From Gammaproteobacteria bacterium (GTDB taxonomy: Bacteria > Pseudomonadota > Gammaproteobacteria > Ga0077536), in NCBI GenBank assembly GCA_021773835.1, contig JAJFJQ010000010.1, forward strand, positions 114,215-178,214: 64,000 nt of DNA, written 5' to 3'. The translations under genes and the position numbers were made by a program. The notes under the pieces were generated by a model. It worked only from the letters and a program-made list of their open reading frames with translations. It searched no databases and was not told the origin of the DNA. The number at the start of each line of letters is the position of its first letter. Position 1 is the stretch's first letter. Shown here piece after piece: positions 22,152 to 44,208 of this stretch.

Positions 22152-25100
22152 TCAAGCGAAAAGGTCGGTCGACGCAATCGAGTCTGCAGCAATTTTCATC
22201 ACGTCATTCTCTGCATTGAAGGAATCGCCAAGGATATCAATCGTACCAACCGTCGTATCGGCGCCGTCTTTTAGGGTAACCAATGTGTGGCCATCCAAGT
22301 CGTCAAACAACAAGGTTAGATCATTGGACACCAACAGCTTGTCTTGACCGGAGCGAAAGTCTCTTACTACGTCCAATCCGAGCGAAGCACCTTCGATGGA
22401 TTCGAACACAAAATGGTCCCTGCCGCGCCCGCCAGTTAAATCATCGTCGCCAGCGCCGCCAACGAGAATATCTTTTCCACGCCCGCCTTCAATTTCATCC
22501 GCGCCGGCGCCACCAACGATGATGTCGTTGCCGCGACCGCCCGAAATGACGTCGTCGCCCGCACCGCCGTCGATCTTGTCGTGTCCAGATCCACCGTCGA
22601 TATCGTCGTTCCCATTACCCGCGCGAATAGTGTCGCGCCCGCGACCGCCGTCGATAACATCCGCGCCGTCGCCACTATTTATATTGTCACTGCCACGCCC
22701 GCCATCAACGACATCGTTACCCGCGCCGCTGTTAATCGTATCGCGACCTTTACCGCCGCTAATGTCATCGTCTCCCGCTTGAGTTGTTATGCTGTCGTTG
22801 CCGCGACCGCCATCGATCTCATTATCGCCAGACCCGCCATTAATCATGTCGTTGCCGGATCCGCCCGAGATTTCATCGTCGCCCTCACCGCCATCCAGCT
22901 TATCGCTGCCGCGACCACCATCGATCACGTCTGCGCCATTCCCACCACTTATCGTATCGGCACCTCGCCCGCCGTCGATTTCATCGTCGCCCGAACCACC
23001 CAGTAACTCATCCGCGCCGCGCGTGCCGACAATAACTAGGTCTTCCTCGGTCGGTGCTTCATCTACCGGAGGTTCGTCCACCGGGGGTTCGTCTACCGGA
23101 GGTTCGTCCACTGGAGGCTCGTCTACCGGGGGGCCATCTACCGGAGGCTCGTCTACCGGAGGCTCGTCTACCGGAGGTTCGTCTACCGGAGGTTCGTCCA
23201 CCGGAGGTTCGTCCACTGGAGGCTCGTCCACCGGAGGGCCATCTACCGGAGGGCCATCTACCGGAGGCTCGTCTACCGGAGGCTCGTCCACCGGAGGGCC
23301 ATCTACCGGAGGCTCGTCTACCGGAGGTTCGTCTACCGGAGGTTCGTCTACCGGAGGTTCGTCCGACGTTGCAATGTAGTCGAGCGATCCAGCGGCTAGC
23401 TTAAACGCCTCCGCACCGTAGATCTCACGGTCCAAAACCACAAGGTCATCGATAGCGCCATCGAAGAAGTAGCGCAGATCATTGAGCGTGCCGCTGCTAC
23501 GGTTCATCGTACTCGCACCGAACACCATCGATTCCGTATTACCAGTCATCCCCAGCGCGAACTCCGGACGACCCGAGAGGTCTTCTACATCCTCCAACTG
23601 TCCGTTCAAATAGAACGCCGCTTGTCCCGCATCAAACGTGAACGCAAAGTGGTATTCCTCGCCCGCCACGATATGTTCGATGTTCTTCGCTTTTAGATAA
23701 ACACTCTGCGTCGTCGATTGATAACGAACATCTACACAACCGTGATCGTCGATCCAAGCCGTCAGGTGACCGCCGTCCACATACCCACTCGCATCCTTCG
23801 AAAACAACACCTGCTTTCCATCCCCAGGCGTGTCCGCGATAAAACTGAATGCAACAGTGCCTGCCGTCTGCGCCAATCCCGTCGCGCGTCCCTCATGCGC
23901 AACATTTACATACGCACCCGGCTCGCCAACCACACTCGGGCCGTCGTCACCGTTCCCCGTGAACGTCATCATGTCCAATTCCGGATGTGATAACTCGTCG
24001 ATCACCGCTACCGCCACCGGCACGTCGTCCGGTACGTTGCTCGCATACCTGAACAGCCCACTGTCTTCAAATGGGTTCGAACTGAACAGCTCCGGATTCT
24101 CGATCACCTCACCCAGATTCCCTTCCGCATCACGTGAGTCGTAACCAATAAACTCCGAACCATCCGACAAGATGCTCGTCTTTAACTCACCACTCGGCGC
24201 TAAGGCCTCTTGAAGCTCATCTACCGTCTCTACGATCCCATGCGTTACCTTCGATTCACGCACGATGTCATCTGCATTCACCAAATCACCGTGCACGACG
24301 ATCTGACCCAACAGATCTTCTGTGTGCGCGCCACCACCCGCACCTTGCTTCGAATACACCGTGATCACCGATATCGCTTCATCATCAACACCATCACCAT
24401 CGGTGTCGATCAAGCGGTGCTCCACTACCGGCGTCGCTGTGTGACCGATGATCGCGATCGTATCTTCGTCGGCGTCATAGTCCGCGATCGTGTCGATCCC
24501 GAACATATCCACCCAGTGGTCGTGTACCTCGTCGTTCTCACCCGCGACCCCGGCCCAGTCGATCCGGCGGTCGTCTTCAACGTGCTCTAAGATGATGTCC
24601 CGCTTCGCGTTGATCTGCGGATTGAACAGGAATGTATCGCGCCCTGCACCACCGACCATGATGTCATCGCCCACCAGCGGCTGGTCTTCCCAACCGTACA
24701 GTTTCTGGCGCTCGGGGTTCACCTCGTTATCTGGATCGCCCCGCGTCGGCTCGCCGATCACCAACTGACCGATACGTTGTTCACCCGAATCCGAACGGCT
24801 CACCAGCAAGTCATCACCATCACCACCCAACAACAGATCTGAGCCACGACCGCCTTCGAGCACATCGTCTTCACTGCCACCGATGAGAATATCGTTACCG
24901 TAGCCACCGACAAGCTCATCGCTACCGGCACCGCCAATCAGTTCATCGTCACCACCTTCTCCATACAGGACATCGTTACCCGCACCACCGTCGATGACAT
25001 CGTTACCGGCCAACATCGGTTGTGGACCGGACGGTGCTGTTAACGCATCACCCGGACCTTCGGTGAACAACTGCCACACCTGCGCCGCATCCAGGGCTGC

Positions 25101-25982
25101 ATCTGGCATGAACCCACCCCACAAGCCAAAGTCCGCTATCGCGCCATCGAAGGCGTCGTCTAGATCATCGGAATCAGCGGCGAACGCCGCTGGGGTGTCG
25201 TTGTTCTTCGTGGCGGAGGTATCCGTGCCAAGTAGCCACGGTTCTTCGTTTTGCAGAATATAGGCTTCGGTCGCCTGAGCCGGCGAATCGAGATTGCCCT
25301 CTTTGCGCACCCAGGCGTAATCCGGAACAGCGACCCCATCAACGTAGACGGTGATACCGTCTTCGGTGAAGGACACGGCAAGGTGCGTCCATTGTCCCTC
25401 ACTCAAATAGGCCTCCGAGGACTCCCACGCCTTATTGCTGCCACCGTCACCCTCGGCAAAACGTAGGAAAACCCGGCCATTATCCTGATGCCCGAGCCTA
25501 AAATGTCCGCCATCGCCGGTGCCGGATTGATCCTTGGACAAGACGATCGCCTGCCCTTTTGAAACCACATCCGGTTGCACCCAAAGCGACACTGTCCCTT
25601 GAGTCACTTCCATGATCGGATCATGGGAGATGAACCCGAAGGTATCTTCGCCATTAAACGCTAGAGCGCCATCTGCAGTTCCATCGGGACCCGGCCGCGT
25701 CACTGGATCCGTTTGTTGGACTGCACTGCCACCGACTAATTGATACGCCGTCGCGTCAGATCCGCCGCGTTCATCCCCGAATACGCCCTCGGCACCAATG
25801 TCGAATCCCCAAAACGCCAACGCACCGGGCAGGCCAACAACACTCGTCGGCTCATCACCATTGATAGTATCGGATCCCGGGGTACCTGGGAGGAGATCGG
25901 ACGATGCCGGTGTAAACCCTAAGGGTTCAAAGTGGGCTCGGCTATTTTGAAAAGTGATCGGTCCTTCGCTTGTATCATCCAT
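22152..25982 (-). CDS. RTX calcium-binding protein with two LamG-like domains, type I secretion substrate
   Basis: A 1276-residue secreted protein without an N-terminal signal peptide. Order of parts: LamG/concanavalin-like domain (about 44-314), first RTX block with GGxGxD repeats (about 320-395), an insert, a second LamG-like domain (about 660-865), about twenty PPVD(E/G) pentapeptides (about 873-973), a long second RTX block (about 985-1180) and a C-terminal tail typical of type I substrates (FRSGQDKLLVSNDL). The RTX nonapeptides bind Ca2+ and fold after export. ATG 25982 is chosen because GGAGG lies 9 nt upstream. The exporter and adaptor genes lie directly upstream on the same strand. 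Adhesion or glycan binding is inferred from LamG. Confidence 0.9.
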   Translation of the reverse strand: MDDTSEGPITFQNSRAHFEPLGFTPASSDLLPGTPGSDTINGDEPTSVVGLPGALAFWGFDIGAEGVFGDERGGSDATAYQLVGGSAVQQTDPVTRPGPDGTADGALAFNGEDTFGFISHDPIMEVTQGTVSLWVQPDVVSKGQAIVLSKDQSGTGDGGHFRLGHQDNGRVFLRFAEGDGGSNKAWESSEAYLSEGQWTHLAVSFTEDGITVYVDGVAVPDYAWVRKEGNLDSPAQATEAYILQNEEPWLLGTDTSATKNNDTPAAFAADSDDLDDAFDGAIADFGLWGGFMPDAALDAAQVWQLFTEGPGDALTAPSGPQPMLAGNDVIDGGAGNDVLYGEGGDDELIGGAGSDELVGGYGNDILIGGSEDDVLEGGRGSDLLLGGDGDDLLVSRSDSGEQRIGQLVIGEPTRGDPDNEVNPERQKLYGWEDQPLVGDDIMVGGAGRDTFLFNPQINAKRDIILEHVEDDRRIDWAGVAGENDEVHDHWVDMFGIDTIADYDADEDTIAIIGHTATPVVEHRLIDTDGDGVDDEAISVITVYSKQGAGGGAHTEDLLGQIVVHGDLVNADDIVRESKVTHGIVETVDELQEALAPSGELKTSILSDGSEFIGYDSRDAEGNLGEVIENPELFSSNPFEDSGLFRYASNVPDDVPVAVAVIDELSHPELDMMTFTGNGDDGPSVVGEPGAYVNVAHEGRATGLAQTAGTVAFSFIADTPGDGKQVLFSKDASGYVDGGHLTAWIDDHGCVDVRYQSTTQSVYLKAKNIEHIVAGEEYHFAFTFDAGQAAFYLNGQLEDVEDLSGRPEFALGMTGNTESMVFGASTMNRSSGTLNDLRYFFDGAIDDLVVLDREIYGAEAFKLAAGSLDYIATSDEPPVDEPPVDEPPVDEPPVDGPPVDEPPVDEPPVDGPPVDGPPVDEPPVDEPPVDEPPVDEPPVDEPPVDEPPVDGPPVDEPPVDEPPVDEPPVDEPPVDEAPTEEDLVIVGTRGADELLGGSGDDEIDGGRGADTISGGNGADVIDGGRGSDKLDGGEGDDEISGGSGNDMINGGSGDNEIDGGRGNDSITTQAGDDDISGGKGRDTINSGAGNDVVDGGRGSDNINSGDGADVIDGGRGRDTIRAGNGNDDIDGGSGHDKIDGGAGDDVISGGRGNDIIVGGAGADEIEGGRGKDILVGGAGDDDLTGGRGRDHFVFESIEGASLGLDVVRDFRSGQDKLLVSNDLTLLFDDLDGHTLVTLKDGADTTVGTIDILGDSFNAENDVMKIAADSIASTDLFA
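23062..23364. repeat. 15-bp tandem repeat encoding PPVD(E/G)
   Basis: About twenty tandem copies of a 15-bp unit lie inside the RTX gene and encode the pentapeptide PPVDE, with Gly replacing Glu in some copies. Third-position differences (GTCTACC/GTCCACC) are scattered among units. The tract is an acidic, proline-rich extended linker between the second LamG domain and the C-terminal RTX block. Copy number is likely to vary between strains. Confidence 0.9.
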
Positions 25983-26049
25983 CACTGCGATTCCTCCGTG
26001 AAATCGTTCCTTGTGTACGCGACTGTCTGCGTTCGCCGACAATCTCCAT

Positions 26050-26068
26050 TAACGCTTACACAGCGTTA
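26050..26068. promoter_or_regulatory. inverted repeat in the RTX gene leader
   Basis: TAACGCT (26050-26056) and AGCGTTA (26062-26068) form a 7-bp stem with a 5-nt loop in the 215-nt gap between the adaptor gene and the RTX gene. It lies about 70 nt before the RTX start. It could be a regulatory hairpin or an operator; no U-tract follows. Confidence 0.35.
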
Positions 26069-26197
26069 GCGTTTTACTTCCGTGTCACAGCGAATCGATT
26101 AAAAATTTCGATTGCTTAACGTGCGGCGGTAGTATGAAACTTCTTAACAATAATTTACTTGACTCTCATCACAAATATTTAGCCTGATGTGAAAGTT

Positions 26198-27514
26198 TTA
26201 CTGCTCTCTCATCGCGCGATAAAAACTTCGCTGCACCGGACGGAAGATGTATTCCACCGTTGTTTGTTCACCGGTGATGATCATCACCTCCGCCTGCATC
26301 CCTGCCGACAGTTCCAATTCTTTTTCAATCGTCACCGCAATATCTGGCAAGGTCACGCGCGCAAGGTAGTAGGGGTTTCCAGTGCGCTCATCGGTGAGTC
26401 GATCCGCAGAGACGGACGCCACAACGCCGGTGAGTGGCGCCACAGTACGTCGATTGAATGCCGTTAAAACAACCTCCGCCTCCATACCGGGGACCACAGA
26501 ATCGATATCGATCGGGTTCACCCGTGCCTCAACGACCAGTTCTTCTTCGTCGGGCACGATGTCCATTAGCGACTCACCAGCGCCAATCACGCCACCGATC
26601 GTATGCACTTGTAAGTTCACGATCGTCCCATTCAGTGGCGCCGTAATATTGGTTCGATGCAGCACGTCTTCGGCCGCGTGGATACGTTCATCGAGATCCG
26701 AAAACGACGTTTTGACCTCACGTAGTTGTGCGACGACCTCGTTGAGGATGGTCGTGCGTAGCTCGAGGATTTTTAACTTTTCTTCTTCAATACTCTGTTT
26801 TATTCGAGCGATCGCTGCACGTTGTTGACTGCGATTCCCGGAAACCTCTGAACGCTCACGTTTCAGCTCGATGATCCGCTGCATACCCGTGAGTTTTCGT
26901 GCGAATAATTTTTCCTGCGCGGCGAGCTCTTCGTCGATCAGCTTAAGCTGTGTGCCTTGCGCATTGATTTGGCCGTGCAAACCAGTCATCTCTTCCCGGA
27001 ACTGGGTAATTCGGTTCTCTAAGATCCCTTGTTCACCCGCAAGTGCGCGGCGTCGCGCATTAAAGATGTTCAGTTCGCCCTTGATGGCATTCGAAACATC
27101 TTTCGAGGTGTTTTGATCGGCAAAGTCGATTTCATCGCGTCCATCACGCTCGGCTTCCAAGCGCGCAGCCAATGCGCGCACAGCCTCATGGCGGATCCGA
27201 AGCTGTGCCAAATTCGCCTTTACCTGAGTCGTATCCAGCTGGATCAATGTTTGACCCGCGCTTACTGATTGACCTTCTTGGACAAGGATTTTTGCGACGA
27301 TACCACCTTCCAAATGCTGCACCGTCTTGCGGTAGCTCTCGACGCTCAACACACCCGGCGCAACGGCGGCGCTTTGCAGCGGCGCGGTAGCAGCCCACCC
27401 TCCGAAGCCAACAAAAAACACTAAGACAATGGTGGCGCCGACGATAACGACAGGTCGCATCGCTTGCAGTGCAGTAGCAGGAGGTGTCGCATTTTCGTCG
27501 TTGGATTTAGGCAT
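26198..27514 (-). CDS. HlyD-family periplasmic adaptor of type I secretion system
   Basis: A 438-residue membrane-fusion protein. It has a short cytoplasmic N-terminus, one membrane segment (VVIVGATIVLVFFVGFGGWAA, about residues 20-40), a biotinyl-lipoyl half-motif (VQHLEGGIVAKILVQEGQSV), a long coiled coil and a C-terminal LDERIHAAEDVLHRTNITAPLNGTIVNL block. It joins the inner-membrane ABC exporter to an outer-membrane TolC-type channel, which is not encoded here. ATG 27514 overlaps the end of the exporter gene by 8 nt; the frame upstream of it is a shadow. The RTX substrate gene follows. Confidence 0.93.
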   Translation of the reverse strand: MPKSNDENATPPATALQAMRPVVIVGATIVLVFFVGFGGWAATAPLQSAAVAPGVLSVESYRKTVQHLEGGIVAKILVQEGQSVSAGQTLIQLDTTQVKANLAQLRIRHEAVRALAARLEAERDGRDEIDFADQNTSKDVSNAIKGELNIFNARRRALAGEQGILENRITQFREEMTGLHGQINAQGTQLKLIDEELAAQEKLFARKLTGMQRIIELKRERSEVSGNRSQQRAAIARIKQSIEEEKLKILELRTTILNEVVAQLREVKTSFSDLDERIHAAEDVLHRTNITAPLNGTIVNLQVHTIGGVIGAGESLMDIVPDEEELVVEARVNPIDIDSVVPGMEAEVVLTAFNRRTVAPLTGVVASVSADRLTDERTGNPYYLARVTLPDIAVTIEKELELSAGMQAEVMIITGEQTTVEYIFRPVQRSFYRAMREQ

Positions 27515-29228
27515 TTTCGACCGCCTTGATATTCGGAACAATTGGGGTCGGAGCAGACGTCGGCACCGGGCGCGTGATCTTTGCCAGCACAGCATCCTTC
27601 GGTCCGCTTAGTTGTACTTGACCGTCGATCAAGATGAGTAAGGCGTCAACGTGTCGGATGACGTTTGGTTGATGCGCGATAACAATTACGGTAGTTCCTT
27701 GCGCTTTAAGTGTCGCGAAAGCGTTGATCAGGGCGTCGAGTCCCATTTGGTCAAGATTCGAATTCGGCTCGTCTAATACGACCAAACTCGGGCCACCATA
27801 TATCGCACGGGCGAGACCGATACGCTGTCGCTGACCAGCCGACAATGCGGCGCCACCTTCGCCGATTTCAGTTTCGTAAGCATCCGGCAGCCGCAGAATC
27901 ATCTCGTGCACACCAGCAAGCTTGGCCGCTTCAAGGATCGCGTCGGGATCGCCTTCGCCAAGTCGCGCGATGTTCTCGCGCACGGTTCCGGCAAATAACT
28001 CGATATCTTGTGGGAGATAGCCCAAATGTTGTCCGCGATCGTTGGAGTCCCAAGTTGCGACATCAACACCGTCGAGGCGCACATGCCCCAATCGTGGTTT
28101 GAGATTTCCGATCAATAGGCGCGCCAGGGTGGTTTTGCCCGCAGCAGACGGTCCGGTTATCGCTAGTACCTGGCCGGCCTGGAGTTCAAAGCTCACGTCC
28201 TTCAGGGTCGGTTCGCCGGAGTCGCCATGACGATAGGTAATCCCTTCGACAGTGACGATACCGCGCGGTTTTGGCAGCGCCATTGGCTCGCGCTGCTGCG
28301 CCGACATTTCGATGCGCTCTCGCAATCGCTGATAGGCACCACGCGCCGTCACCAGGCCTTTCCAAGAGCCGATCGCTTGATCGACCGGGGCCAGCGCACG
28401 ACCTAGCAGAATAGTCCCGGCGACCATGCCACCGGGCGACAATTGATTGCTGATAACAAGCCACGCACCAATGCCAAGCATCGCAGTTTGCAATCCCAAG
28501 CGGCAGAACTTCGAGGTCGCCGTTATAACCCCGCTGCGCGCGTTGGCTTGCGACTGCAGTGCCTGTGCCAATTGTTGATGCTGGCTCCAACGTCGCGACA
28601 TCTGCTTGAACATCCCCATGGCGTGGATAACATCGGCATTGCGTACCGCAGATTCCGCGTGCTCCATCGCCTTGATTTGCATGGCATTGGAACGTTGCAG
28701 CGCGTTGCGAGTTGCCAGTTCGTTAGCAACGGCCAAAGCCATCAACACAACCGCGCCACCGAGCGCGACCCATCCAAGTACCGGATGGAGCAAGAAGATG
28801 ACCCCCAAAAACAATGGGATCCACGGTGCATCCATGATTGGAAACATCGAGGGTCCGCTGAGAAATGCACGGACGTTGGCCAAATCTCGCAAACCCTGGG
28901 TTGTCGGTCCAGATTTCGATTTGAGCCGCTCTTCAACGCTTTCACGTAGAACCAGTCCAGCCAGCCGATCATCGAACCAGGCGCTCATTTTGTTTAAGCC
29001 AAAGCTGCGCACACCCTCGAGGCACGCAAGCGCGAACAGGGCAACCGCTGCAATGAGGGAGAGGACGACGAGTGTATCGATACTCTGGCTACTGAGGACC
29101 CGATCGAAGACTTGGAGCATGTACAACGGTGCGGTGAGCATCAGCAGGTTGATGAACGCGCTAAAAACCGCGATTGCAATAAAAGCCCCGCGTAAACCCT
29201 CTATCGTCGTCCGAAATTCGTTCTGCAT
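27507..29228 (-). CDS. type I secretion ABC exporter (permease-ATPase)
   Basis: A 573-residue PrtD-type half-transporter without a C39 peptidase domain. The N-terminal membrane domain (INLLMLTAPLYMLQVFDRVLSSQS) is followed by an ATPase with Walker A GPSAAGKTTL (about residue 356), ABC signature LSAGQRQRIGLARAIYG (about 461), Walker B LVVLDEPNSNLD and the H-loop VIVIAHQP. It exports the downstream RTX protein in one step across both membranes. ATG 29228 has GGAAGGGA upstream; an earlier in-frame ATG at 29252 is possible but poorly placed. It is the first gene of the ABC-HlyD-RTX operon. Confidence 0.93.
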   Translation of the reverse strand: MQNEFRTTIEGLRGAFIAIAVFSAFINLLMLTAPLYMLQVFDRVLSSQSIDTLVVLSLIAAVALFALACLEGVRSFGLNKMSAWFDDRLAGLVLRESVEERLKSKSGPTTQGLRDLANVRAFLSGPSMFPIMDAPWIPLFLGVIFLLHPVLGWVALGGAVVLMALAVANELATRNALQRSNAMQIKAMEHAESAVRNADVIHAMGMFKQMSRRWSQHQQLAQALQSQANARSGVITATSKFCRLGLQTAMLGIGAWLVISNQLSPGGMVAGTILLGRALAPVDQAIGSWKGLVTARGAYQRLRERIEMSAQQREPMALPKPRGIVTVEGITYRHGDSGEPTLKDVSFELQAGQVLAITGPSAAGKTTLARLLIGNLKPRLGHVRLDGVDVATWDSNDRGQHLGYLPQDIELFAGTVRENIARLGEGDPDAILEAAKLAGVHEMILRLPDAYETEIGEGGAALSAGQRQRIGLARAIYGGPSLVVLDEPNSNLDQMGLDALINAFATLKAQGTTVIVIAHQPNVIRHVDALLILIDGQVQLSGPKDAVLAKITRPVPTSAPTPIVPNIKAVENA

Positions 29229-29457
29229 GTGGGTTTCCCTTCCACTAATCAACCATCCTGGTGCAGCGCGCCTTGAGTGCGGCGAGCGATAATGTCGCGC
29301 ATGCGCTCGTGATCTATAAAATAGACAGGTGTTAACAAAGTTTCACGCCCGAAGTGCGACGATTGGACAATGCTCACAGGTTTCGGATGCGGCACTTGCA
29401 GTTTTCGAAAAACTAAAATACGCGCCTCGTTGATTAGAATTGACGTAAAGTATCGAA

Positions 29458-35977: not shown

Positions 35978-36727
35978 CTATACGTGACGATCTTCCATGA
36001 GCCGGTTAATGCATGCATCGAGCGTTTCGGTCGCGATCTCGCCCCGCTCGAACAACGAGCAACAAAGATTCGCGGCAGCCGCAGGTTCAGGTGAGCGTAG
36101 CCGAAATAACTCTAACGCCGCTCCGCTGCCCACGGCGATATCGCGTAACACTAAAGGACTTAGCATCGCGGCAGTTTCCAACACCGGGCATTGAGCGACG
36201 TTATGAATTGCCGTGAGTAATTTGGGTCCAATAAATTGCGGCGGCATTGGACCATGATTTTTCATGAGTAGTCGCTCGGCGGTCTCGATATAAAAATTCA
36301 AAAACGAATTTCCCGAACAAAACATTAGGAATGCATTGTGCACCTTGATATGCGCCTTGAGCTTAGCCGGATTGCTACGATCCGCTTGGATCCAAACTTC
36401 GCGTCCCAGAGCGTAACTTTCATCGGGCAATATAAAACCGGCCGGATCGAAAATTAAAAAGTCCGCATCGCACCAAATCACGCGTTCGAAACCTTCATTC
36501 ATATACGATTGAATAGCCCTTATGCGGGCGAGGTCTGTTGCAACTATTCGTTGAGGTCCAGTTTTCTCTAGCAGCGAAGTGGGAACATAGTCGAACAAGT
36601 CATCGTGCATAAAATGATACTGAAAATTATGTAACTCGCACCACCGCTCAACCGATCCGATGCAGGTAAGTAACCACTCATTAGGCAATGGATCCTTGTG
36701 GGATTGTAGGACAAGGGTATCGGGCAT
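35978..36727 (-). CDS. glycosyltransferase-like (GT-A fold) protein
   Basis: A 249-residue protein with FERVIWCDADFLIFDPAGF (about residues 82-100). This resembles the DxD metal/sugar-nucleotide motif of GT-A glycosyltransferases, preceded by the usual TDLARIRAIQSYMNEGF helix that handles the donor. The remainder (KVHNAFLMFCSGNSFLNFYIETAE) also fits that group. It lacks a membrane anchor. The gene stands alone; no polysaccharide cluster is nearby. Donor and acceptor are unknown. Confidence 0.65.
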   Translation of the reverse strand: MPDTLVLQSHKDPLPNEWLLTCIGSVERWCELHNFQYHFMHDDLFDYVPTSLLEKTGPQRIVATDLARIRAIQSYMNEGFERVIWCDADFLIFDPAGFILPDESYALGREVWIQADRSNPAKLKAHIKVHNAFLMFCSGNSFLNFYIETAERLLMKNHGPMPPQFIGPKLLTAIHNVAQCPVLETAAMLSPLVLRDIAVGSGAALELFRLRSPEPAAAANLCCSLFERGEIATETLDACINRLMEDRHV

Positions 36728-36920
36728 TTATTGAGGTGTCTCGTCGCACCATCGAGCGAATTAAGGTGAACCAATCTAGCACAGACATAGCTACCTGAAC
36801 CCCCCGGTCACTCGGTCTTCCATCTGCAAAAAATATTCAATCCCACTGGGTCTGAAGCGCCGGTCAACATAGGAAATTCCATTAACAATATCCGCACAAA
36901 ACATGTCACTTGCATATTGG

Positions 36921-36930
36921 ACCGATCGGT
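36921..36930. promoter_or_regulatory. ACCGATCGGT palindrome, TetR-type operator candidate
   Basis: A perfect 10-bp palindrome lies 65 bp before the MAPEG gene. ACCGxxCGGT cores are common in operators of TetR-family repressors. The flanks (TTGG and TCTAA) extend the symmetry only partly. No TetR gene lies in the neighbourhood. Confidence 0.35.
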
Positions 36931-36995
36931 TCTAAATTAAGCATATAAGTGACCACCCATGCGCCAATCCGCAGTCTTCCAGAAGGGGAAATACG

Positions 36996-37409
36996 ATGAC
37001 CACTGAAATTTCGATGCTAATCGCGGCGACCGGCGTGCTCGGCGCAACAATCATTGCACAGGCGACCCATTTGATGTTCGCATTCCCGCCAATGGCAACA
37101 ATGGGTACTCGCGATGAGCTCAAACTCACGACACTAGCAGAACGACTACAGCGTCTTGTGCACAATCATCTTGAAGGGACCGCGCTATTCATACCGCTTG
37201 TGGTTGCGATTTCATTGACCGGCGCCACTGTTGAGGCAAACGGGATCCATTGGGGCAGTGCACCACTTAGCGCGCTCGGCGCGCAAGTTTTCGCCGCCAG
37301 CCGCGTCGTCCATGCGGTGACCTATGGGTTAGGTATTCCAGTCATCCGTTCTCTAGCTTGGATGGTTGGGATGACGGGGCTCGTTATGATGGTTATTGCG
37401 TTGTTCTAA
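36996..37409 (+). CDS. MAPEG-family membrane protein
   Basis: A 137-residue membrane protein with four hydrophobic segments. The conserved cytoplasmic stretch is LAERLQRLVHNHLEGTALFIPLVV (about residues 47-70), matching the RxxxxxxNxxE motif of MAPEG proteins (membrane-associated eicosanoid/glutathione metabolism). It is followed by the Arg-containing AASRVVHAVTYGLGIPVIRSLAW. Bacterial members may bind glutathione, but activity is mostly unproved. The start follows AGAAGGGG. It is monocistronic. Confidence 0.85.
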   Translation: MTTEISMLIAATGVLGATIIAQATHLMFAFPPMATMGTRDELKLTTLAERLQRLVHNHLEGTALFIPLVVAISLTGATVEANGIHWGSAPLSALGAQVFAASRVVHAVTYGLGIPVIRSLAWMVGMTGLVMMVIALF

Positions 37410-37660
37410 AAACTCATCGACAGATAATTAATTTCCGCGAGCTGATTCGCCGCAATAAAGCAATCCGCGCATTCCCAAAGCCATGCCAACCGATTTTTCC
37501 TGTCTTGGCGATTCCCGGACAGCTGTGGTGGCCCGTCATCATTGACTATTTGATAAACATATCAGTATCCCAACGCAAGATCCTGAATAATTTGCGTCCT
37601 TTTCGAAGTTGGCCCGTCTTATAGGGCTGATAGCTCTTTTAACCTATAGAGGGAATTTCG

Positions 37661-38107
37661 ATGAGATTACAATTAGCGTTGAATGTTCGGGACCTTGGAG
37701 AAGCCGTGACCTACTATTCGAAATTGTTTGATGCAAAGCCGCATAAACAGCGAGAGGGGTACGCAAATTTTGCTATCGAGGAGCCACCGTTAAAGCTAGT
37801 CCTGTTCGAAGACCCAAACGCACACCAGCGGCTAAATCACCTCGGTGTCGAGGTGTTCGATGAGGATCAGATCGAAACTGCTTCGAAACGACTTTCTCAA
37901 CAAGGCGTGCTTGATGAGGTGCAACGCGATGAGACCTGTTGCCATGCTACCCAGAACAAACTCTGGTCGAACGAGCCGCAAGGGCTGCGCTGGGAGTGGT
38001 ACCGGATCACCGATGATGATCCAACCGAGTCCACCGAAGCTCAAGCTTCAAGGTGTTGCGAAAGCGTTCAGAACGAGGGGACTTGCTGCGTCCGTGCAGA
38101 GGTTTAA
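37661..38107 (+). CDS. ArsI/CadI-type vicinal-oxygen-chelate dioxygenase
   Basis: A 148-residue VOC-fold protein. It starts MRLQLALNVRDLGEAVTYYSKLF and contains RLNHLGVEVF (metal His) and DETCCHATQNKLWSNEPQGLRWEWY (about residues 92-116). The Cys-Cys pair followed by W and WEWY is the hallmark of the ArsI/CadI family: ArsI C-As lyase or cadmium-inducible protein. The C-terminal extension carries two more Cys pairs (RCC and TCC). It is translated 15 nt before the SigZ-type sigma gene on the same strand, so a metal or metalloid response unit is implied. Confidence 0.88.
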   Translation: MRLQLALNVRDLGEAVTYYSKLFDAKPHKQREGYANFAIEEPPLKLVLFEDPNAHQRLNHLGVEVFDEDQIETASKRLSQQGVLDEVQRDETCCHATQNKLWSNEPQGLRWEWYRITDDDPTESTEAQASRCCESVQNEGTCCVRAEV

Positions 38108-38122
38108 TGCTAAGGTAGATAG

Positions 38123-38713
38123 ATGCACGCGATGGATGAGGAAGGAGAGGCATCTGCGGACACGACAGAAGAGTGGCATGCCGTGGCCGCGCGCTTGCGT
38201 CGGTTTTTGCGAAACCGGGTAGACCCAGGTTCCGTTGACGATTTGCTCGGCGACATCCTATTGCGCTTAGTGGAACATCAACAGTCACTTAAAGCGGCGG
38301 ACAACCCATCTGCATGGATATACCGAGTCGCGGCGAATGCGGTGACCGATCATTATCGGCGCCGCGCCACGGAGGAACGCGTGATTGCATCAACCGCGGC
38401 CGACGACGCGCCGGACATTCCATCGCCGTCGCTTGTTGAAAGCTCCGCTGAGATGGAACTGGCTAAGTGCCTAGACCCGTTAATACGGACACTACCGGTG
38501 TCCTATGCACAGGCCCTGTATCTAACCGATATAGAAGGGCTCTCGCAGGTCGAAGCGGCTCAGCAACTTGGTTTGTCCACGTCAGGCATGAAGTCGCGAG
38601 TCCAACGTGGGCGCGCGCGACTGAAAAAGACCTTGCTCCGATGTTGTCAAGTTTACCTCGACAAGAAAGGCCGCGTAGCTGATTACGAACCACACTCAGG
38701 AAAGTGCTGCTGA
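38123..38713 (+). CDS. sigZ: ECF RNA polymerase sigma factor, SigZ-like
   Basis: A 196-residue sigma-70-family protein. Region 2 is DLLGDILLRLVEHQQSL with AWIYRVAANAVTDHYRRRA; region 4 is LPVSYAQALYLTDIEGLSQVEAAQQLGLSTSGMKSRVQRGRARLK. The tail RCCQVYLDKKGRVADYEPHSGKCC, with Cys pairs near residue 172 and at the end, matches SigZ-type factors. No anti-sigma gene is adjacent, so the Cys pairs may make it directly metal- or redox-responsive (inference). It is coupled to the ArsI/CadI-like gene upstream. Confidence 0.85.
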   Translation: MHAMDEEGEASADTTEEWHAVAARLRRFLRNRVDPGSVDDLLGDILLRLVEHQQSLKAADNPSAWIYRVAANAVTDHYRRRATEERVIASTAADDAPDIPSPSLVESSAEMELAKCLDPLIRTLPVSYAQALYLTDIEGLSQVEAAQQLGLSTSGMKSRVQRGRARLKKTLLRCCQVYLDKKGRVADYEPHSGKCC

Positions 38714-38753
38714 GACCGGTCTGATAATCATAACCTGTGCGATTCAGCTAGTG

Positions 38754-38909
38754 CTACGCTTCTCCGGGTACGGGAACGTCGTCGTAATCGATCTCAACAT
38801 TGTCCATGTCGATAAACGATACTGAGAATCCGGCGGTATTTTCGGCCTCGAATGTTTCAATCAAGTGACCTTCTATTACCTCGCGTGACATTAGCGTTTG
38901 CTCTTCCAC
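38754..38909 (-). CDS. small acidic peptide, copy 1 (51 aa)
   Basis: A GTG-initiated ORF of 51 residues with a strong GAGGAG Shine-Dalgarno about 8 nt upstream. It opens with MEEQTLMSREVIEGHL, then has ENTAGFSVSF and a VEIDYDDVPVP end. It matches copy 2 (42412-42585) at 37 of the first 48 residues; copy 2 differs by a longer C-terminus. It has no signal peptide, Cys residues or membrane segment. Its upstream region is also duplicated. The family is not one I recognise (not PqqA or MftA by motif). A ribosomal-peptide precursor or a small regulatory protein are the options. Confidence 0.75.
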   Translation of the reverse strand: MEEQTLMSREVIEGHLIETFEAENTAGFSVSFIDMDNVEIDYDDVPVPGEA

Positions 38910-38955
38910 TTTACTTTCTCCTCTAGCGTCAAAATTGACGAGTTTGTGTGTTCAT

Positions 38956-39032
38956 TCGATGGTGAAAGTATGGACTAGCAATGTAATCTGGGTGTTTCTG
39001 CTGTGGCAGTGAATTGTTTCAGTTTGGTAACA
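38956..39032 (-). promoter_or_regulatory. conserved upstream block of small peptide copy 1
   Basis: A 77-bp block upstream of copy 1 matches 42631-42707 upstream of copy 2, including identical runs CGATGGTGAAAGTATGGACT and GGTGTTTCTGCT (+ strand). Mismatches cluster in two short spots. The conservation before a small paralogous gene points to a shared promoter and activator site. A TACATT/TACAAT hexamer on the minus strand could be a -10 element without a good -35. Confidence 0.65.
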
Positions 39033-39062
39033 AGCGGCTGGCCCGGCCGAGCAACCACGGAT

Positions 39063-41507
39063 TCACATGACAGCGGTAAGGTCTGCAATTTCATGTTTAA
39101 CCAAGGCCTCAAAAGACTGCGGTCTTCCGATCCCGTAGCCCTGGGCATAATCAACACCGATCACCCGTAACACATCCATGATCTCATCGTTCTCGACGAA
39201 TTCCGCGATGGTCTTCATCCCCATTACGTGACCAATCTCATTGATCGATTTCACCATCGCACGGTGTATCGGGTCGTCTACGATATCTTTGACAAAGGCA
39301 CCGTCAATTTTCAAATAATCGACCGGAAGTGTTTTTAAATAGGCAAATGAGGATAAGCCGCTGCCAAAATCATCCAGCGCGAATCGGCAACCATATTCTT
39401 TAAGCGTCGCGATAAACGTCGTCGCGGTGCTCAGATTCGCAATTGCTGCCGTCTCGGTGATTTCAAAACAGATTTTCGCGCCAGCAATCCCCGATTTGTC
39501 GAGTTCCGTGACAATGAAGTCCAAGAATTCTAGGTTGCTCAATGACTGTCCTGAAAGGTTTATCGAAATACAACTAATCTGAGTTAGAAACCCTGGATTA
39601 CTAATCAACACATCAAGGGCTTTCGTAACGACCCAAGTATCCAACTGCGTTATCACGCTATAGCGCTCTGCCGCCGGTAGGAATGCCCCAGGCGGAATGA
39701 GTTGCCCGTCCCCTTCGTCCAGTCTGATGAGCAGCTCATAGTGAATATGGTCACAACCTTCCACGGGCATTATGGCCTGCGCGAAAAGGCAGAAACGGTC
39801 TTCGTCTAGCGCCCGCTGAACTCGTGTTACCCATTGCATTTCGCCATGACGTCTCGCCAGTTCGATATCTTCCGGACAGTACACATGCACGCGGTTTCGC
39901 CCGAGGTCCTTAGCCATGTAACAAGCAGCATCTGCGCGCCTTAATAGCTCCTGAATAGTGGGCGTTTCGCTAGTTATTTCTACCAAGCCAATGCTTACTC
40001 CTACCCGAAATACGCGGTCCTCCCAATTAAATTGAAAATTTTGTACCGCCTCTTGCATAGAGCTTACCGCCCGATGGGCTTGGTCCACCGTGCAGTGTTC
40101 CATTAACACACCAAACTCATCACCACCGAGACGCGCTACGGTGTCTCGTTTACGTATCCCTTGTCGTAGTACCGCGCTGATTTGGCGCAGCATCTCGTCT
40201 CCCGCGGCATGTCCGCAGGTATCGTTGACGACCTTGAACTGATCCAAATCGATGTAGCACATCGCATGTTCGGACTGGTCTCTGCCAATGCTATCGAACA
40301 GTTGTTTCAGATGTCGTTCAAACTCCCTCCGATTTACTAGGCCCGTTAAAGCGTCATGGGTCGCCTGATAGGTGATTTTTTCAGCCAGACGTCGCGTTTC
40401 AGTGATGTCTTCACATACGATCAACGCCACCGGCCGACCATCTATATCGTTGACTACTCGGGCGGTCTCACGCATATAGATAACAGAGCCGTTTTGGCAG
40501 GTTTTTCTCAGTTCCCAGTTGCGCGTCGACCCAGGCGTCTCGAAGCATTGTCGTAGGTATTCTTCGGCCGCCGTTCGATCTTCATCAAAGGTTATGGAGA
40601 CCGCCGGCTTGCTGACGAGTTCGTCCTTCGAATAACCAAGTTGGTCAAGCGCGAATTGATTAACGGAGACTATGACGCCGTATTCATCAACGGCATAAAG
40701 CATAATTGGATTGTTGTCGTACAGTGCGCGAAATCGCTCCTCACTACTACGCAACGCTACTTCCACTTGCTTGCGCTCAGTAATGTCTTGCACTGTGCCC
40801 ATTATTCGCCTTACGACGTCATGCTCGCCGACGTTCACTTCCGCTTGGCCATGGACGGTCCGGATCTCGCCGCTTGGCCGAATGATGCGATACTCCATGT
40901 AGAAGATGTCGTGCCGTTCCACGGTATCGGCAAGCGCGTCTTTTATCGCTGCTACGTCTTCAGGATGAACGTAATCGAACACAGAATCATAGTGTAAGGT
41001 GATCGACTGGGGGTCGATCCCCATGATCCTAAAGAGTTCATCCGACCAGGTGATCACACCCTCTTCAACATCCCACTCCCAACTGCCTATATTCGCCAAA
41101 CGTTGCGCTTCGGTCAGAATGAATTCGCTTTTGCGTAATGCGTCCTCGGCCTGTTTTCGCTCAGTTATGTCCCTTCCTATCGACACAACGAATTTCTCAC
41201 CATCCATTTCTATTATCGAGAACGACATCGACATGGGTATCGCGTGACCGCCTTTGGCGCGATATTCGATCTCGTTTTCGGAAACGGTACCGTTACGCTC
41301 GATTTCTTTGATTAGAGAGGGCCTATTTTCGGGATTCCGCCAAAAATTTAATTCAAGTACGGTTTTTCCCAGAACTTCTTCCGCGCTATAGCCAAATGTC
41401 TTGATAAATGCGGGGTTAACGTAGGAAATCAAGCCGTCGTCAGAGCGGCTGATTATTACCGTGTCCGGCGTCGCGTTTAGGATCTTTGATAACGGATCGT
41501 CTTTCAT
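39063..41507 (-). CDS. PAS-GGDEF-EAL cyclic-di-GMP signalling protein
   Basis: An 814-residue cytoplasmic protein with three PAS domains (about 5-115, 125-245, 260-370), a GGDEF domain (about 390-545) and an EAL domain (about 560-810). The cyclase loop ARLGGDEFGVL (GGDEF about residue 460) is intact, with an RKRD inhibitory I-site five residues before it. The EAL signature reads YELLIRL instead of EALxRL. DDFGSGLSSFAYL and KIDGAFVKDI are present, so phosphodiesterase activity is possible. ATG 41507 has GGGAG 6 nt upstream; the frame is open to 41618. The protein is soluble, and the two small peptide genes lie on either side of it. Confidence 0.9.
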   Translation of the reverse strand: MKDDPLSKILNATPDTVIISRSDDGLISYVNPAFIKTFGYSAEEVLGKTVLELNFWRNPENRPSLIKEIERNGTVSENEIEYRAKGGHAIPMSMSFSIIEMDGEKFVVSIGRDITERKQAEDALRKSEFILTEAQRLANIGSWEWDVEEGVITWSDELFRIMGIDPQSITLHYDSVFDYVHPEDVAAIKDALADTVERHDIFYMEYRIIRPSGEIRTVHGQAEVNVGEHDVVRRIMGTVQDITERKQVEVALRSSEERFRALYDNNPIMLYAVDEYGVIVSVNQFALDQLGYSKDELVSKPAVSITFDEDRTAAEEYLRQCFETPGSTRNWELRKTCQNGSVIYMRETARVVNDIDGRPVALIVCEDITETRRLAEKITYQATHDALTGLVNRREFERHLKQLFDSIGRDQSEHAMCYIDLDQFKVVNDTCGHAAGDEMLRQISAVLRQGIRKRDTVARLGGDEFGVLMEHCTVDQAHRAVSSMQEAVQNFQFNWEDRVFRVGVSIGLVEITSETPTIQELLRRADAACYMAKDLGRNRVHVYCPEDIELARRHGEMQWVTRVQRALDEDRFCLFAQAIMPVEGCDHIHYELLIRLDEGDGQLIPPGAFLPAAERYSVITQLDTWVVTKALDVLISNPGFLTQISCISINLSGQSLSNLEFLDFIVTELDKSGIAGAKICFEITETAAIANLSTATTFIATLKEYGCRFALDDFGSGLSSFAYLKTLPVDYLKIDGAFVKDIVDDPIHRAMVKSINEIGHVMGMKTIAEFVENDEIMDVLRVIGVDYAQGYGIGRPQSFEALVKHEIADLTAVM

Positions 41508-41859
41508 CGTAACTCCCACCTCAAGCCCATTGTCTGGTGCAATCAGGCGCGCCCGCGGAATACCAAGATCGAGTTTAAGCCCGCAATCGGAAACGACGAC
41601 GTCCATGACCGAGACCAACGTTGACTAGCCAACAGGAGTACGTTCCCATAGCTTTCTCGAGGACATAAGGACGGCATCAACCCATGGCATCCGCCACAAG
41701 CTTCAATTCGACATGTCGTCTCTCACCCGGACCCCGTTCCGTGAATTCCAGGCACCTCGTGTAGCGGCACTATTTAGGCAAAGTTTAAATTTTTGGGCGC
41801 TGGTGCCGGTAATTTGGCACCTAGGGGAGCTGCGGGTGCAGCGTATAACGCTATATAAC

Positions 41860-42305
41860 TTAGAGAGGGCATGCTACGCCCACATAATTTGTCCGCACGA
41901 GCGAGATCCCAGGAATGGGCGGCGGCTGTTGGATCTGAATAATCTCGTCCCACACATGTCCGAATCCGGCACGCTCGAACAACTCGCTGGGATTGCGGGT
42001 CGAATGGCACCCACCGAGTAGACGGGACCAAATGGGGTTCAAACGGTGCTGCCAGCGTCGCATTCGTTCCGAGGTAGCCAAACCGTGTTCGACATAAAGC
42101 AGTCGTCCGTCCTTTTTCAACACGCGTCGCATACCCCGAAGCGCGCGTTGTCGTACCACCGGAGACTCGTACCGCTACCGTAGCCCACCTCGAGGACGCG
42201 GCCCATGGCTCGAGGGATCACCTTCGCGCGTTGCTGTACAAATCCTTCGTGTCCACAGATCCCATCAATGATGCGCGGAAGTATTCGATTCTCGTAATAT
42301 CCCAT
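41860..42305 (-). pseudogene. SAM-dependent methyltransferase, internally deleted and frameshifted
   Basis: The N-terminal part (42305 inward) reads MGYYENRILPRIIDG and GRVLEVGYGSGTSLRWYDNA, the SAM-binding motif of UbiE-like methyltransferases. The C-terminal part, in another frame up to 41860, reads MRRVLKKDGRLLYVEHG, RWQHRLNPIWSRLLGGCH and FERAGFG, the end of the same family. The middle (about 65 residues, from the motif I loop to the motif post-I strand) is missing, and the two parts meet out of frame near 42120-42160. The gene is inactivated by a deletion. The first 350 nt on its 3' side (41508-41859) show no gene, only a weak GGTGCC/GGCACC hairpin at 41802-41821. Confidence 0.75.
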
Positions 42306-42411
42306 AACGTAAAATGTGGCCAGAGGTGATCCATGAGAGCTAAAGGTCTTGCGCGGCAGTCATTGGTAGTTTGATAAACATACCTCGGCTGACCAATTAG
42401 CCTACTCGTCT

Positions 42412-42585
42412 TTAGGCCGATACGTAGTATTGTTCGTCGCTCGGTACGGGAACGTCGACATAATTAATTTCAACGTTTTCGATTTCGACGAAAGATACCG
42501 AGAAGCCGGCGGTGTTCTCAACCGCGTAGGTTTCGACCAGGTGACCTTCAATAACTTCGCGTGACATTAACGTTTGTTCATCCAT
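42412..42585 (-). CDS. small acidic peptide, copy 2 (57 aa)
   Basis: An ATG-initiated 57-residue ORF paralogous to the peptide at 38754-38909. The first 48 residues are 77% identical: DEQTLMSREVIEGHL, ENTAGFSVSF, and DVPVPSDEQYYVSA in place of DDVPVPGEA. Changes are mostly conservative (I/V, D/E, F/Y), as expected if the protein sequence is under selection. GAGGAGG precedes the start at about 9 nt. No Cys or signal peptide is seen. It lies between the methyltransferase pseudogene and the Cys-rich secreted protein gene, which is divergent. Confidence 0.75.
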   Translation of the reverse strand: MDEQTLMSREVIEGHLVETYAVENTAGFSVSFVEIENVEINYVDVPVPSDEQYYVSA

Positions 42586-42630
42586 TTTACTTCCTCCTCG
42601 ATTATCAGGATTAACGGGTTCTTTGCTGTT

Positions 42631-42707
42631 TCGATGGTGAAAGTATGGACTGCCATTGTAGTTAGGGTGTTTCTGCTTTGGCGGTGAATTGTTTCAAATT
42701 GGTAACA
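42631..42707 (-). promoter_or_regulatory. conserved upstream block of small peptide copy 2
   Basis: A 77-bp block in the 376-nt region before 42962, almost identical to 38956-39032. On the minus strand it contains a TACAAT hexamer close to where a -10 element would lie, and a conserved GTTACCAA end. The rest of the 376-nt region (42708-42961) shows no gene. Confidence 0.65.
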
Positions 42708-42961
42708 GCATTTTCGGCTGGCTGAGCAATAGTGCATTCTGTCAACGGCTCGCTTAAAGCCTAGGTTTTAAGCGGCTTTCAGGGCTATCGTCGTGCTGCT
42801 ATTAGACGAGATTGCGGTACAAATTCTTCCTTCTGCGTCACGGCCATTTTAAATTTCAGGCAATATACACATGGTTTTCGTGTAGGTTATGCCTACCTCG
42901 CGAGCGTGACGTACGGCTCCGGTGGCCAACTGATGTATGCTTGCTCTAACGACGATAATCT

Positions 42962-43324
42962 ATGAAATTGCAATTCCTATCTCGACGTTACGCATTCTAC
43001 GCATTCGTTGCACTAGCACTATTAACTTGCATGGCTGTCGCAGTTGAGAGCGATATCGACTCCACTATAGATCCTGCATTAGAAAATTTACCCGGTGCGG
43101 ATTCTGAGATCACCCGTCTTGATTGCACTGCTGTTATGTCACCGAGTATCGATAACCACGGGCGACCGGCCGGCGGCATGTGTACAGAATGTATGTGTAA
43201 TAACGGTCAACGGATGCCGATGTTTCTTTGTGATAAAGGGCACTATCCGACGGAATGTAAGAACAAGTCACAGGAACTCCACGCTCCAAAGCGGCACGGC
43301 CACCTAGATCAAAGGGCGATTTGA
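42962..43324 (+). CDS. small secreted Cys-rich protein
   Basis: A 120-residue protein with an N-terminal signal sequence (AFYAFVALALLTCMAVAVES). The mature part contains six Cys (LDC, GGMCTECMC, FLCDKG, TECKNK), a spacing suited to disulfides or a metal site. It is hydrophilic, with an acidic mid-part (ESDIDSTIDPALENLPGADSE). I do not recognise the family. It is divergent from small peptide copy 2 and shares the 376-nt intergenic region with it, so both may respond to the same signal (inference). Confidence 0.7.
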   Translation: MKLQFLSRRYAFYAFVALALLTCMAVAVESDIDSTIDPALENLPGADSEITRLDCTAVMSPSIDNHGRPAGGMCTECMCNNGQRMPMFLCDKGHYPTECKNKSQELHAPKRHGHLDQRAI

Positions 43325-43373
43325 TAACTCAATTTATCAAGCGTCAGATGATCAAAAATGCTCGGCTCAAATT

Positions 43374-43420
43374 CGTGGATCGATCTTCCCGGGGAATTGC
43401 CTTGGTTGAGGCAATCCACG
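43374..43420. other. nested inverted repeats between convergent genes
   Basis: CGTGGAT (43374-43380) pairs with ATCCACG (43414-43420). Within it lie a CCCGGGG-like palindrome and ATTGCC/GGCAAT (43396-43401 with 43410-43415). The inner and outer stems overlap at one end, so they are alternative folds. It lies between two convergent genes and may act as a bidirectional terminator, though no T-tract follows. Confidence 0.35.
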
Positions 43421-43485
43421 CCCCCTCACGATAGGCAGAGTTGACATCCGGGTTAAGCCATTAACTCAGTAAGTTCCCCGAATTT

Positions 43486-44208
43486 CTAGCGTCGCGCCTC
43501 AAGGGCTTTCGCCAGCGCTGGGTAATCATCGGCGACAATGTCATGGATCGGGTTCGGCTCCGGGTCGGGCGGGCCGTCGTTGCCCCACTCTCGGGGGCGC
43601 TTCACAAAGGCCGTTTTGAACCCTTGTTTTTTGGCGGCGTCTAGATCGAAATTATGGCAGGCGACCATGCAGATATTGGACGGGTCCAACTGCAGATAGT
43701 GCGCCACCGTGTCATAGGCTTCGGGCAACACCTTGTACTTGCCGATCGCTTCGCAGCTGAACACGGCGTCCCACGAGAGACCGTTACGCCGCGCGGTGTC
43801 CATAATGATTCGAAAACTCAGAATTGTGAACGACGCACATATAAAGTGCTCCCGAAGCTGCGGCAGAACAGGGGGGAAGTCCGACCAGCATTCGAAATTG
43901 TGGGGCGCGTCATAGGCGATCGCATGACGCTCCGCCTCGCTGAACGCGTCCAGCCCGTGTTCCGCAATCACTTCATCGAGCGCCATGCGGTGCCCACCGT
44001 CGAAATTGTACGTCGGCGGCGTGTGCTCGCCGAGGTTTAGCATCTTACCGAGGCTTTTGCGGCGGATGTCATTTGTAATGTCGTGCCAGTTACGCTCCAA
44101 ACGATGAGCGGCACCCGTTTTGGTCAGGATGGTCTTGAATCCGGTATGCCAATCCAAAATGGTACCGCCGGTATCGAATGTCAGGGCGCGGATGCCTGAT
44201 ATGCTCAT
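43486..44208 (-). CDS. haloacid dehalogenase type II-like HAD hydrolase
   Basis: A 240-residue HAD protein. Motif I is ALTFDTGGTILDW (nucleophile Asp about residue 11), motif III the Lys of GKYKVLPEAYDTVA, and motif IV MVACHNFDLDAAKKQG. The MVACHNFDLDAA signature is characteristic of type II L-2-haloacid dehalogenases and their relatives. The nucleophile and Lys are retained; halide-specific residues cannot be judged from this alone. It is monocistronic and divergent from the FNR-like gene. Confidence 0.85.
   Translation of the reverse strand: MSISGIRALTFDTGGTILDWHTGFKTILTKTGAAHRLERNWHDITNDIRRKSLGKMLNLGEHTPPTYNFDGGHRMALDEVIAEHGLDAFSEAERHAIAYDAPHNFECWSDFPPVLPQLREHFICASFTILSFRIIMDTARRNGLSWDAVFSCEAIGKYKVLPEAYDTVAHYLQLDPSNICMVACHNFDLDAAKKQGFKTAFVKRPREWGNDGPPDPEPNPIHDIVADDYPALAKALEARR

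Follow-up and report, generated by a model that had tools for sequence, protein, structure and literature searches.

Two small genes on the minus strand of a 64,000-nucleotide stretch of gammaproteobacterial DNA (assembly GCA_021773835.1, contig JAJFJQ010000010.1, positions 114,215 to 178,214; the whole stretch is called the window below) encode similar acidic proteins of 51 and 57 residues, and each is preceded by a conserved non-coding region. We found that the small-protein family to which they belong is real, rare and undescribed, being ordinary in kind and unusual in the clarity of its paired upstream regions. The upstream conservation is the strongest clue to how the small genes work, and was absent from an earlier prediction made from the letters of this DNA (hereafter the original prediction). 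The explanation that we tentatively prefer, while granting it somewhat less than an even chance, is that the copies are two independent units in each of which a leader hides the gene start, and that the acidic beta-sheet protein is made on a signal and acts by binding a partner.

Copy A (38754..38909, minus strand) starts with GTG, ends with TAG and encodes 51 amino acids, and copy B (42412..42585, minus strand) starts with ATG and encodes 57; both were recognised from their open reading frames (ORFs), from comparison of the copies and from their relatives. The original prediction described ORFs of 51 and 57 codons sharing 37 of 48 aligned residues, each with a strong ribosome-binding site, and this description was confirmed: identity is 37/48 when both initiators are read as Met and 36/48 by literal codons, and the ribosome-binding sites preceding the copies are GGAGAAAGTAAAGTG and GGAGGAAGTAAAATG. 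With B as query, a genome search retrieved A at an expectation value (E) of 2.6e-21, a likeness far above chance; a third family copy was not found in the organism's own genome, the next match lying at E 1.4. Copy A stops at TAG (38754-38757) at the place where B (42412-42432) reads on for six extra residues.

The copies differ at 32 bases over 48 codons, with 6, 4 and 22 differences at the first, second and third codon positions. Nonsynonymous (dN) and synonymous (dS) divergence were 0.107 and 1.48 by NG86 (dN/dS 0.07), and 0.147 and 0.59 by YN00 (dN/dS 0.25), ratios that come from one pair of short sequences and are rough but clear in direction. Because the differences are so distributed over the codon positions, and because dN lies so far below dS by NG86, A and B are, as judged from sequence comparison, both protein-coding genes under purifying selection. 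The claim of the original prediction that both proteins are real and selected was thus borne out by the codon positions, by the ratios and by the external relatives described below; neither method gave the ratio near 1 between the copies that it had named as contrary evidence.

The sequence searches indicate that the family is present beyond this strain but rare. When 5.8 billion proteins were searched with B alone, the two candidates returned were A and one other protein. A three-sequence alignment used as query recovered eight family proteins out of 23 candidates; with a nine-row alignment, the same eight came back out of 323 (E up to 10 in both searches). Besides copy A, the eight include seven proteins drawn from ENA, JGI, NCBI and Logan sources. 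The original prediction would have been refuted by the lack of any homologue outside this strain, and these seven supply them. Its expectation that homologues would stay small was supported: six of the seven external relatives are 54 residues long, and the seventh, P0004, has 95 residues since it runs about 40 residues beyond the usual end. The contigs that carry one relative, P0007, reach 2.96 Mb, and the longest contigs of the other six measure 548-6526 bases. Across all nine family sequences, 21 positions are invariant.

Outside the organism's own genome, no family member was found, by our reading, among 36 genomes of the order, a sample of 369 from the class and a sample of 398 from the phylum, each set including that genome. 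Searches of genome_contigs for the family gave 61 and 47 pattern matches and no relative, viral contigs gave 54 pattern matches and no relative, and plasmids and phages likewise yielded none. Matches in ten other genomes among 96 relatives (E 0.07-0.87) were discarded, one (L014) on inspection as chance and the remainder on E-value. Three matches in the class sample (E 0.0025-0.0092) were also taken as chance: one lies in a 550-residue frame, one contains four stops, and the third (L023) overlaps longer ORFs.

The original prediction knew of no family for these proteins, and no meaningful profile or sequence match was obtained in Pfam, NCBIfam, PHROGs, PADLOC or the PDB sequences, where the best stray matches were at E 0.09 (PHROGs), 0.1 (Pfam) and 0.91 (PDB); three family sequence strings did not occur in the literature searched. 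Cys is absent from all nine family sequences, conservation is spread over most of the protein length, and the net charge is -11 to -13 (for the two copies, grand average of hydropathy (GRAVY) -0.22 and -0.08, net charge -13 and -11, respectively). AlphaFold predicts, with middling confidence, a three-stranded beta-meander followed by a loose tail, with strands at the same three places in models built from B (predicted local distance difference test (pLDDT) 78.6, predicted template modelling score (pTM) 0.49) and from the relative P0003 (77.1 and 0.47). Against this fold, the models are of middling quality with a wide spread among the five (52-79 from B, 57-77 from P0003), and the structure search gave no PDB match at E 1e-3; matches from Foldseek and VIA-align were weak. 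The small protein showed no recognisable signature of catalysis, membrane location or export, and we therefore infer a small binding regulator: the models suggest a beta-sheet protein, acidic in composition, whose probable mode of action is binding, perhaps in dimeric form. Small regulators were the other role suggested in the original prediction, and it is this class that we tentatively prefer.

The regions preceding the two genes, which are likely leaders, extend over 38910..39032 for A (about 80% identical to that of B) and 42586..42707 for B, both on the minus strand and both delimited by comparison with the other; BLAST aligned them at 80% identity over 127 bases. Aligned non-coding upstream columns are identical in 97 of 122 cases, compared with 26 of 48 third codon positions (Fisher p 0.002), and the difference persists when a 22-nucleotide (nt) block that is identical in both leaders is left out (75/100, p 0.014) and in the 55 columns upstream of that block (45/55, p 0.003 against third positions). 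Since the upstream columns are more alike than the third positions, the upstream regions are also constrained, or have been held alike by conversion. Among 36 genomes of the organism's family, the upstream regions of A and B match only each other, and a covariance model of the leader run on 96 genomes detected the organism's own two copies at about 1e-36; three further matches (E 0.03-0.09) were taken as chance. Within its own genome, the DNA preceding B also had stray matches of 22 bases (E 0.009) and 16 bases (E 0.75). A search of the 6.1-Mb genome for the 18-nt core of the block, allowing up to two mismatches, found it in the two leaders alone, and a viral scan with the leader block gave no match.

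Over much of its length, the 22-nt block complements the ribosome-binding site and start codon of its own gene. In the predicted helix of A, the 5' arm (38958..38974, minus strand, within the block at 38955-38976) pairs with a 3' arm (38905..38923, minus strand) that covers the ribosome-binding site, the start codon and two bases of codon 2; in B, the corresponding predicted arms are 42633..42649 (minus strand, within the block at 42630-42651) and 42581..42599 (minus strand), the latter covering the same elements. A helix of 15 pairs is possible in both copies, and the two pairs that vary are U-A/U-G exchanges that keep the pairing, and one of these exchanges falls on the initial base of the start codon (GTG vs ATG); both differences lie in the 3' arm (2 of 19 positions). 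The arms together differ at 2 of 36 positions and the intervening loop at 14 of 34 (p 0.0005). Model pair probability is at least 0.94 in both copies for 12 of the 15 pairs; among the other three, one shares a base with a neighbouring partner (0.53, 0.40), and two reach 0.75 in A and 0.99-1.00 in B. The 90-nt region folds with a z of -3.4 in A and -2.3 in B, and 1 and 7 of 200 shuffles, respectively, fold as well. When 43 gene starts across the window (those of A and B among them, all taken as called by ORF length) were ranked by how far the ribosome-binding site is hidden, B came 1st and A 4th, and A had the lowest fold z (-3.8).

Several observations weigh against a helix that hides the starts. 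The fold z of a 145-nt region is only -1.8 in A and -1.3 in B. When the start codon is counted too, B ranks 4th and A 6th-7th of the 43 starts, the fold z of B (-1.8) is 4th, and among 177 matches to a ribosome-binding site plus start in the window, A ranks 20th and 28th and B 21st-24th; by this modelling, the hiding of such start sites is only moderately unusual. There are only two leaders, derived from one duplication, and 13 of the 15 pairs are invariant, which leaves no true covariation; the 3' arm would be conserved anyway as ribosome-binding site and start, and the 5' arm is not significantly better conserved than the remainder of the leader (0/17 vs 10/57, p 0.10). The helix gives no explanation of the identity upstream of the block, and it would be precluded if transcription started within the block. 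Weighing the folding models with these points, we put a translational lock on both small genes at a little less than evenly probable.

In the mechanism that we propose, each copy with its own conserved upstream region would be a self-contained transcription unit, whose leader RNA would fold over its own ribosome-binding site and start codon so that, as we infer, translation is held off. Candidates for opening the fold are a trans-acting RNA, processing of the 5' end, a ligand and a protein; the small acidic protein, made on that signal, would then bind a partner molecule as a regulator. Heat is an unlikely trigger by the model: an RNA thermometer was rejected because no helix melting was seen up to 55 C, the modelled accessibility of the ribosome-binding site rising from 0.26 at 37 C to 0.34 at 55 C in A and from 0.21 to 0.26 in B. 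As in translational riboswitches and RNA thermometers, the ribosome-binding site is predicted to be paired with an upstream arm; unlike in those systems, no aptamer was recognised, no melting was modelled in that range, and Rfam gave no match over 38400-43400 at E up to 1. A conserved leader peptide was also considered. In B, a 56-residue ORF (42567-42737, minus strand) crosses the leader and extends into the coding start of the gene; the equivalent frame of A reads TTG...VHTFTIE and meets a stop in the loop. Such a peptide is made less likely by a one-base indel and by the unlike ends of the two frames; translational coupling could still apply in B.

The best rival to the lock is that the conserved block is a promoter or operator for a specific transcription factor or an extracytoplasmic function (ECF)-type sigma factor, with control exerted on transcription of the copies together and the helix a side effect, which we consider possible though doubtful. 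It would account for the conservation that extends upstream of the block (45/55 columns, as above); in that part of both leaders lies GAAACACCC-N14-GTCC, which occurs nowhere else in the window, and the leader alignment shows GAAAC recurring at a spacing of 22 nt in each leader. A SigZ-like ECF sigma gene, scoring below NCBIfam's own SigZ cut-offs, moreover adjoins copy A in convergent orientation. However, a promoter or operator offers no account of a diverged loop beside an unchanged block complementary to the start, the exact element was not found upstream of the sigma operon when the whole window was searched, and no sigma-70-like promoter was found in the upstream region by a scan that is blind to other promoter types. 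Both readings could hold together, a regulated promoter being followed by a locked leader.

The remaining readings concern what the protein does. Given adjacency and a shared strand, it might partner or regulate the PAS-GGDEF-EAL protein, whose gene lies between the two small units (39063..41618, minus strand); the conserved upstream region that each unit has of its own argues against a shared operon, and we hold this reading to be improbable. A type I toxin-antitoxin-like unit, in which a start-hiding leader and an antisense RNA would control a growth-affecting small protein, seems to us quite improbable. In the part of the literature consulted, inhibitory 5' structures are described on several type I toxin mRNAs, and those of tisB, dinQ, zorO and hok carry inhibitory leaders that need opening or processing (PMC5668327). 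The small proteins here resemble such systems in size (<60 residues) and in a leader predicted to hide the ribosome-binding site, the hiding being moderate against the control starts. They are, however, acidic, predicted to form a beta-sheet and not hydrophobic overall by the GRAVY and charge values given above, in contrast to ZorO, which the same source describes, where consulted, as a small hydrophobic peptide (PMC5668327). The present case also differs in its two similar leaders with an identical block, and an antisense RNA was not found, either in a plus-strand scan of the leaders for sigma-70-like sites, which found none, or in the genome scan with the 18-nt core. The original prediction had suggested precursors of ribosomally made peptides as one role, and small size, twin copies and a methyltransferase-like remnant adjoining B would fit ORFs whose products are modified and exported. 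That suggestion fared badly, and we now give it very little credence: Cys is lacking throughout the family, conservation over most of the length leaves no leader followed by a variable core, and no modifying or export enzyme was seen with Pfam among the eight neighbouring ORFs or pieces (36996-44208).

The order on the minus strand is B, two overlapping open methyltransferase-like pieces (41860..42305; 41860-42159 and 42117-42305), the PAS-GGDEF-EAL gene and A. Behind the methyltransferase label stand weak Pfam matches (E 0.14 and 0.17), and on the first piece an unrelated profile reached 0.045; the gene is probably decayed. The original prediction that the twin genes flank a cyclic di-GMP signalling gene and a decayed methyltransferase was right about the order. 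No sign was seen that proximity to the signalling gene matters: both neighbours are probably incidental, and in the mechanism proposed above they would be bystanders. The PAS-GGDEF-EAL gene ends about 30 bases before the conserved upstream region of A starts, with a weaker local alignment reaching the last codons of that gene. Because the conserved upstream regions are separate for the two small genes, the sequence argues for self-contained units rather than a cyclic di-GMP operon. In translation, the PAS-GGDEF-EAL protein keeps GGDEF, has RxxD five residues before it, and carries ELL in place of EAL.

On the plus strand, a glyoxalase-family gene is followed by the SigZ-like sigma gene (37661-38713), and the pair also occurs in one genome of the organism's family, L026 (63% and 39% identity). 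A flanking HAD gene has a relative in 7 of 35 other genomes of that family, four of which were opened; in their stretches of about 20 kb, the other 25 window queries, including the small genes, gave no match at E 1e-4. Measured over 2-kb intervals, G+C between 36001 and 44000 is 0.50-0.52, towards the lower limit of the range in the window (0.465-0.602). Because of this low G+C, one probably broken gene and the lack of a common gene order in the four relatives, 36001-44000 is possibly an acquired or decaying stretch. Farther away on the minus strand (22152-29252), an ORF of 1296 residues (22152-26042) lies behind ORFs at 27507-29252 and 26198-27595, which look type I secretion-like by their first residues alone.

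An ORF pair below common length cut-offs has thus turned out to be a genuine, selected family with scattered relatives, missing from the family databases searched. Uncharacterised small-protein families are recorded in large catalogues such as GMSC (PMC11364881). Like those in such catalogues, the proteins described here are short, conserved, without domain annotation and mostly found on short contigs; unlike them, they can be viewed on a long contig that displays two copies with conserved upstream regions, which points to a testable mode of control. We also entertain, as an unlikely extension, that an acidic regulator family of about 54 residues is governed by self-locking leaders. These would form a translational switch of a new class, which a dedicated small RNA or a metabolite would open, and the twin genes would give one cell two independently triggered doses of a single inhibitor. 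The conserved upstream region offers a concrete, testable hypothesis for how orphan small proteins of this type are switched on, and, if the leader is indeed a switch, the two copies would provide a ready comparison for finding its trigger.

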